NCBI GenBank assembly: GCA_010093605.1 | Contig: MU004181.1 | Coordinates: 2,386,215-2,450,214 of the forward strand | Length of the DNA stretch: 64,000 nucleotides | From: Lophium mytilinum | Taxonomy: Eukaryota > Ascomycota > Dothideomycetes > Mytilinidiales > Mytilinidiaceae | Direction: 5' to 3' | Shown here: piece after piece, positions 45,283 to 46,108 of the stretch | Numbering within the stretch: position 1 is the first letter of the stretch | Layout of the letters: each line of letters begins with the position of its first letter | The notes under the pieces: model-generated | Database searches by the model: none | What the model saw: only the letters and a program-made list of their open reading frames with translations | What the model was told of the DNA's origin: nothing | Made by a program: the position numbers and the translations under genes

Positions 45283-45660
45283 TTGGCCTGAGAATTGGTG
45301 AATGGAGAAAGATAATGGGAGTAAGGCTATGAACCGGGGATCAGTTTCGAACATCTATAGAACCTTGAACAGTCAAATCTCGTGCTCTTTCTGTTTTTGG
45401 TTACTCCAACTGATGGTGTGTTCTAACTCCACATCTTGAATTTGGTGCTCGTTACATGATCAAGGTAAAATTCGAAGATGAAGCTGCTAAAGGTTGGCCA
45501 GCACAGACCAAACAAGCACGAAAACGGTTCGCGTGTCGGGCACGTGACCATTCTGGCTCCGTTCTGCCAGAAACCTCATCCGAACCGCATCTTCAACCAG
45601 AGCTCAATCTCCAACAACGCCATCGAATCTCATCTCCCGCGGGCCCTGATCCACAAACCA

Positions 45661-45736
45661 GTAAGTCAATTCTGCACTCTGGAGCTCCCTTCGCCTTCAA
45701 TTCGCGCCCTGGACGATGCTAACAAAGGTACCGCAG
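45661..45736 (+). other. probable 5' UTR intron of nuclear atp8
   Basis: A gtaagt donor at 45661, a branch site ATGCTAAC near 45718 and an acceptor accgcag ending at 45736 fit a leader intron just upstream of the atp8 start codon. No ATG lies in the roughly 100 bases before the donor. Confidence 0.5.
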
Positions 45737-45744
45737 AGGCCGTC

Positions 45745-46108
45745 ATGAACTCCACCCGTGTCTTCCGCCCGCTCGCAAGGGCCGTTCAGCGCCAGCCGGG
45801 CATGCTGCACGCCTCAGCAATGGTCCGCCCTACTCTGGCCGCCACCCAGATCAAGACGAAGCAGACCGAGACTGCAGCCAAGCCACAGGGACTGGTATGT
45901 AATTCACGAGCCGATGAAGCCGGGTACGGCTAACAAATTGCAGATGATGTACCGCGCGGCGATGCCCCAGCTCGTCCCCTTCTTCTTCGTCAACGAGACC
46001 ACCGTTGCCTTCATTGCGCTCCCCGCCCTCATCTACGTCTTCTCCAAGTACGTTCTACCAGCGAAGGTCCGCACCCAGGCTGCGCGTCTGTTCATCAGCA
46101 AGCTATAA
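45745..46108 (+). CDS. atp8: nuclear-encoded ATP synthase subunit 8 with mitochondrial presequence, 104 aa
   Basis: Exons: 45745-45894 and 45944-46108, joined in phase 0. Exon 1 encodes a 50-residue basic, amphipathic presequence without acidic residues near the start (MNSTRVFRPLARAVQRQPG and on). Exon 2 encodes MMYRAA followed by a complete subunit 8: it opens MPQLVPFFFVNETT, has one membrane segment (VAFIALPALIYVFSKYVLP) and ends in the basic tail RTQAARLFISKL. The MPQL-VPF start and the RLFISKL end are hallmarks of Atp8 of the F1Fo stator, a protein encoded in the mitochondrial genome of most fungi. Codons are nuclear standard and C/G-ending, and the gene has spliceosomal introns, so this is not a recent mitochondrial DNA insertion. 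The intron lies exactly between presequence and mature part. Confidence 0.9.

Follow-up and report, generated by a model that had tools for sequence, protein, structure and literature searches.

A 2024 review (PMC10809612) counts atp8 as one of the mitochondrial genes for which fewer than six transfers to the nucleus are known, and our search of the literature on nuclear-encoded atp8 returned Franco et al. plus a paper on a ctenophore. In the part of Franco et al. 2017 (PMC5626475) available to us, the mtDNA of Stemphylium lycopersici is described as being without atp8 and atp9, while the nuclear homologues have predicted targeting peptides. Relocation of atp8 to the nucleus has been in print since that report, and the gene that we describe here is a well-supported further example.

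Excerpts of several other papers show how the two genes are distributed among related fungi. Both atp8 and atp9 have moved to the nucleus in Shiraia-like species (PMC11881002), and mtDNA without atp8 and atp9 has been reported in the Pleosporales (PMC6221350, PMC11167856, PMC5722872). The mtDNA of Mycosphaerellaceae retains atp8 (PMC7999263). For Macrophomina phaseolina, the mtDNA gene list has atp6 and atp9 only (PMC8451660), unlike the legend to the tree of 15 species in the same excerpt, which does name atp8. In PMC4366305, atp9 is reported in Neofusicoccum parvum, and atp8 and atp9 are found together only in M. graminicola. The literature excerpts that we retrieved contained no description of a nuclear atp8 in the Botryosphaeriales, and a literature search on Cenococcum geophilum found nothing.

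The gene described here is located in a 64-kb window (the whole stretch of DNA that we analysed), which belongs to an assembly of 43,183,309 bases in 24 contigs. It is found at 2.43 Mb on a contig of 3,848,845 bp, which we call C1. A search of the assembly for 5.8S rRNA gave no match, with 39 of 1268 candidates scored, and a 5.8S primer had no exact match either. The locus holds one intact gene of nuclear composition that encodes a presequence-like extension followed by a full Atp8. Judging from the sequence, we believe that this nuclear gene very probably supplies the cell with functional ATP synthase subunit 8, and that it would have left the mtDNA in an ancestral lineage of the present filamentous ascomycete.

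Structure of the gene and its product

Features of the atp8 locus, with positions counted along the window
Feature	Position	Strand	Description
atp8 coding sequence	join(45745..45894, 45944..46108)	+	104 aa
Exon 1	45745..45894	+	150 nt, 50 codons; ATG at 45745; presequence-like
Putative intron	45895..45943	+	49 nt, phase 0; GTATGT...GCTAAC...TTGCAG
Exon 2	45944..46108	+	165 nt including TAA; MMYRAA (six codons), then complete 48-aa Atp8
Atp8 part	45962..46108	+	MPQLVPF...RLFISKL, stop; segment of the PF05933 and 6b2z_A matches and of the GC3 value
Candidate upstream intron	45661..45736	+	76 nt, just 5' of the ATG; GTAAGT...GCTAAC...GCAG; proposed from these signals, which may occur by chance

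The earlier note on this DNA had proposed a two-exon nuclear gene, and this model stands: its coordinates are correct, and the predicted 49-bp intron has recognizable signals, including a branch-like CTAAC at 45930-45934. Intron signals alone are weak evidence, because matches to the pattern GTRNGY-CTRAY-YAG are frequent across the 64-kb window, with 28 starts on the plus strand (0.44 per kb, a count that includes real introns) and 21 on the minus strand. The chief support for the intron is that, once it is removed, a complete Atp8 would follow in frame on a presequence-like stretch; a stop codon inside the intron interrupts the frame when it is read unspliced. The intron had also been placed exactly at the boundary between the presequence and the mature protein, and here the model needs correction, given that the six additional codons of exon 2 stand ahead of MPQLVPF and the intron is only near that boundary. 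The start codon of atp8 is uncertain because of the candidate intron just upstream: if that intron were spliced, an ATG at 45456 would be in frame with exon 1. We also noted an open frame at 45456-45722, upstream of atp8, which would join exon 1 in frame on splicing of 45661-45736.

Exon 2 had been read as encoding a full Atp8, and two matches confirm this. Residues 57-104 of the precursor align with positions 1-48 of 48 in the family PF05933 (67.5 bits against a cut-off of 26.1, E 1.1e-18), and they match yeast Atp8 (PDB 6b2z_A, residues 1-48) end to end with an E-value of 2.9e-9, so that both matches are far past chance level. The PF05933 family search also matched weakly, below the cut-off, in 1 of 14 control genomes. 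Identity of the Atp8 part is 24/48 to yeast Atp8 and 28/48 to a fungal mitochondrial Atp8 encoded on the contig NZ_BMCE01000010.1, whose atp8 gene served as our mitochondrial comparator.

This contig was found when relatives were sought in sequence collections. Against viral contigs, no relative was found for either the window protein (24 pattern-matching stretches) or a mitochondrial Atp8 query sequence (48 stretches). Against genome contigs, the window protein again had no relative among 219 stretches, and for the mitochondrial Atp8 query a single stretch out of 264 was confirmed, that on NZ_BMCE01000010.1. This contig of 29,098 bases bears the title Fictibacillus barbaricus strain CCM 4982. 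We examined 10,144 bases of it, which have 26% GC and the look of fungal mitochondrial DNA, with frames on one strand that read as nad1, nad4, atp8, atp6, nad6, and cox3, and the contig is probably a contamination of the bacterial assembly.

Exon 1 encodes 8 basic residues and 1 acidic residue in 50. Within the first 30 residues, which have a net charge of +5 and no acidic residues, the best helical hydrophobic moment is 0.71, a value matched by 31 of 5000 shuffles. Exon 1 resembles a basic, amphipathic mitochondrial presequence in these respects, and both the charge and the amphipathicity fit the targeting role that had been predicted for it. The further suggestion that the targeting exon was recruited from a donor gene fared less well, as a search of the assembly for a second copy of exon 1 found none at E <= 10, and the one candidate scored was exon 1 itself.

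The best 19-residue hydropathy of the Atp8 part is 1.81, versus 2.32 for the Atp8 of NZ_BMCE01000010.1 and 2.41 for yeast Atp8. What we take to be the N. crassa Atp8 sequence gives 2.34. A lower hydropathy of the membrane span is what we might expect for an imported subunit, in what is a small sample. As a requirement for import, reduced span hydropathy is a weak candidate, which we set aside: in the excerpt of PMC3420929 that we used, nuclear expression of yeast Atp8 needed a targeting sequence and recoding, and no change to the protein.

Under the mechanism that we propose, the Atp8 precursor would be made in the cytosol, its basic and amphipathic N-terminus would direct it through TOM/TIM23, a matrix peptidase would cut it near the junction of RAA and MPQL, and its single span would be inserted into Fo beside subunit a. 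The steps of import, cleavage, and assembly are drawn from what is established for Atp8 in general and from the cytosol-made yeast Atp8, which works when given a targeting sequence, as described in the same excerpt (PMC3420929).

Nuclear setting and the fate of the mitochondrial gene

We found no mitochondrial contig in this assembly in searches with the COX1 and cytochrome b families. A match to the ATP6 family on C1 (15.6 bits, E 0.19) was sub-threshold, and we did not accept it as real. Because no mitochondrial contig was found, the loss of mitochondrial atp8 is argued from published fungi, and the analogy with them suggests that the gene is probably gone from the mtDNA here as well. The alternative is dual encoding, in which a mitochondrial atp8 would be retained and working and the nuclear copy would be dispensable or stage-specific. 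That cox1, atp6, and cob led to no mitochondrial contig leaves room for this, but loss of mitochondrial atp8 has been published for groups of Dothideomycetes, the nuclear copy is undamaged and its codon usage strongly of nuclear type, and no atp8 NUMT was reported in the assembly by either the family profile or the mitochondrial Atp8 query, and we therefore consider dual encoding very improbable. Among the best candidates scored, there was also no other Atp8 in the assembly by the window protein, the family profile, or the mitochondrial Atp8 query.

The gene is flanked by an acyl-CoA thioesterase gene on one side and a short-chain dehydrogenase (SDR) gene on the other. GC content is 57% in the Atp8 part, where GC3 is 0.82; GC3 is 0.51 in the thioesterase gene and 0.65 in the SDR gene, and the mitochondrial comparator atp8 has 24% GC and a GC3 of 0.12. 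Based on this difference in GC3 (0.82 versus 0.12) and on a position deep in a 3.85-Mb contig, atp8 is, as far as composition and location can tell, a relocated nuclear gene and not a NUMT. It lies in nuclear DNA, has nuclear-type composition, and carries intron signals, with splicing predicted from the DNA, and it shows neither the AT-rich mitochondrial composition nor the intron-free, decayed state of a NUMT. NUMTs are present elsewhere in this genome, which lends some footing to the idea that atp8 is a NUMT or pseudogene, a chance and functionless nuclear insert of the mitochondrial gene. However, the NUMTs that we saw are AT-rich and broken, whereas atp8 has a high GC3, its frame is unbroken, and it carries intron signals as well as an exon that resembles a presequence, so that we regard such an origin as extremely improbable.

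Equally hard to credit is the idea that exon 2 comes from another small mitochondrial membrane subunit that merely resembles Atp8: short proteins of this kind are easily confused, but PF05933 is the sole Pfam family matched at E <= 1, and up to E 10 just two distinct sequences of solved structure were matched, both ATP synthase protein 8, which contradicts the refuting outcome that the earlier note had named, a closer match of exon 2 to another small subunit.

atp9, NUMTs, and a possible order of gene export

A working nuclear atp8 that replaced the mitochondrial gene remains our preferred reading, and in the published Pleosporales both atp8 and atp9 are missing from the mtDNA. In this genome, we found no nuclear F-type atp9 with a PF00137 profile search or with BLAST using two F-type Atp9 queries, a search that a gene split into very short exons might escape. 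PF00137 gave 10 matches at three loci, all of which we take to be V-ATPase proteolipids, and on this reading we discarded the idea of a nuclear atp9 close to atp8 on C1.

BLAST with the Atp9 queries found pieces on two contigs only, C5 and C21. The C5 NUMT (~464,826-464,978) is an AT-rich patch in a region that otherwise has ~50% GC, and it contains an internally deleted mitochondrial-type atp9, with 92% identity to the Atp9 query in a 24-residue part and 96% in a 27-residue part. On C21, an AT-rich NUMT cluster (~184,669-185,724) contains two decayed atp9 copies that are 85% alike over 93 bases, along with a PF00361 (nad-type) piece, a tRNA-Lys, and a tRNA-Ser. We scanned four NUMT stretches against Pfam (E <= 5); two of the four had matches and the other two gave nothing. 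One stretch matched PF00361 at 21.8 bits, against a cut-off of 21.5, and also DMT_YdcZ below its cut-off, and the other matched PF00137 sub-threshold, at 18 against a cut-off of 24. Given that these NUMTs contain mitochondrial-type atp9, we infer that atp9 is still part of the mtDNA in this lineage or was so until recently.

These results bear on the Pleosporales context in which the earlier note had set the gene. The published loss of atp8 from Pleosporales mtDNA stands, but its fit to this fungus is doubtful, with atp9 present in the NUMTs and with no sign, in the searches above, of the nuclear F-type atp9 that goes with a Pleosporales-type export of both genes. The pattern implied here is that of the Botryosphaeriales, where the available excerpts on M. 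phaseolina (PMC8451660) and N. parvum (PMC4366305) have atp9 in the mtDNA and atp8 unlisted. It is tempting to propose that the Dothideomycetes exported their Fo genes step by step, such that atp8 became nuclear before the split of Botryosphaeriales and Pleosporales and atp9 followed later, in Pleosporales only, so that the present fungus would be Botryosphaeriales-like, with a nuclear atp8 and a mitochondrial atp9. We put this forward tentatively, as a scenario that falls a little short of probable, and the Botryosphaeriales-like character is judged by gene content, not by a tree. Three species of Conidiobolus (Entomophthorales), which are distant fungi, also have mtDNA without atp8 and with atp9, as implied here, although the excerpt of that paper does not state that their atp8 is nuclear (PMC8632527), and because of this parallel we do not place the fungus firmly as Botryosphaeriales-like. 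If the comparison of gene content is right, atp8 left the mtDNA earlier than atp9, and if that order is true, the Dothideomycetes would present successive stages of mitochondrial gene export in one class.

Comparison with described systems

With its intron signals and presequence-like exon, the atp8 gene of this fungus is a clean example of relocation and a natural counterpart to the allotopic expression of ATP8. It is like TW65_04673 of S. lycopersici CIDEFI-216 (PMC5626475), a nuclear atp8 with an N-terminal extension; in that fungus the targeting peptide is predicted by TargetP and the mtDNA is without atp8. The two cases differ in that atp9 of S. lycopersici is nuclear too (TW65_03276), whereas here none was found and the NUMTs point to a mitochondrial atp9. 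An intron is also not mentioned for TW65_04673 in the excerpt of that paper, in contrast to the predicted 49-bp intron of the present gene.

A second comparison is with the nuclear atp9 of Podospora anserina, as described in the excerpt of PMC3420929, which likewise encodes a small membrane subunit of Fo that carries a presequence and is synthesized in the cytosol, as we propose for Atp8 here. The P. anserina case concerns subunit 9, with two nuclear paralogues, and reduced hydrophobicity was required there, which was not so for yeast Atp8.
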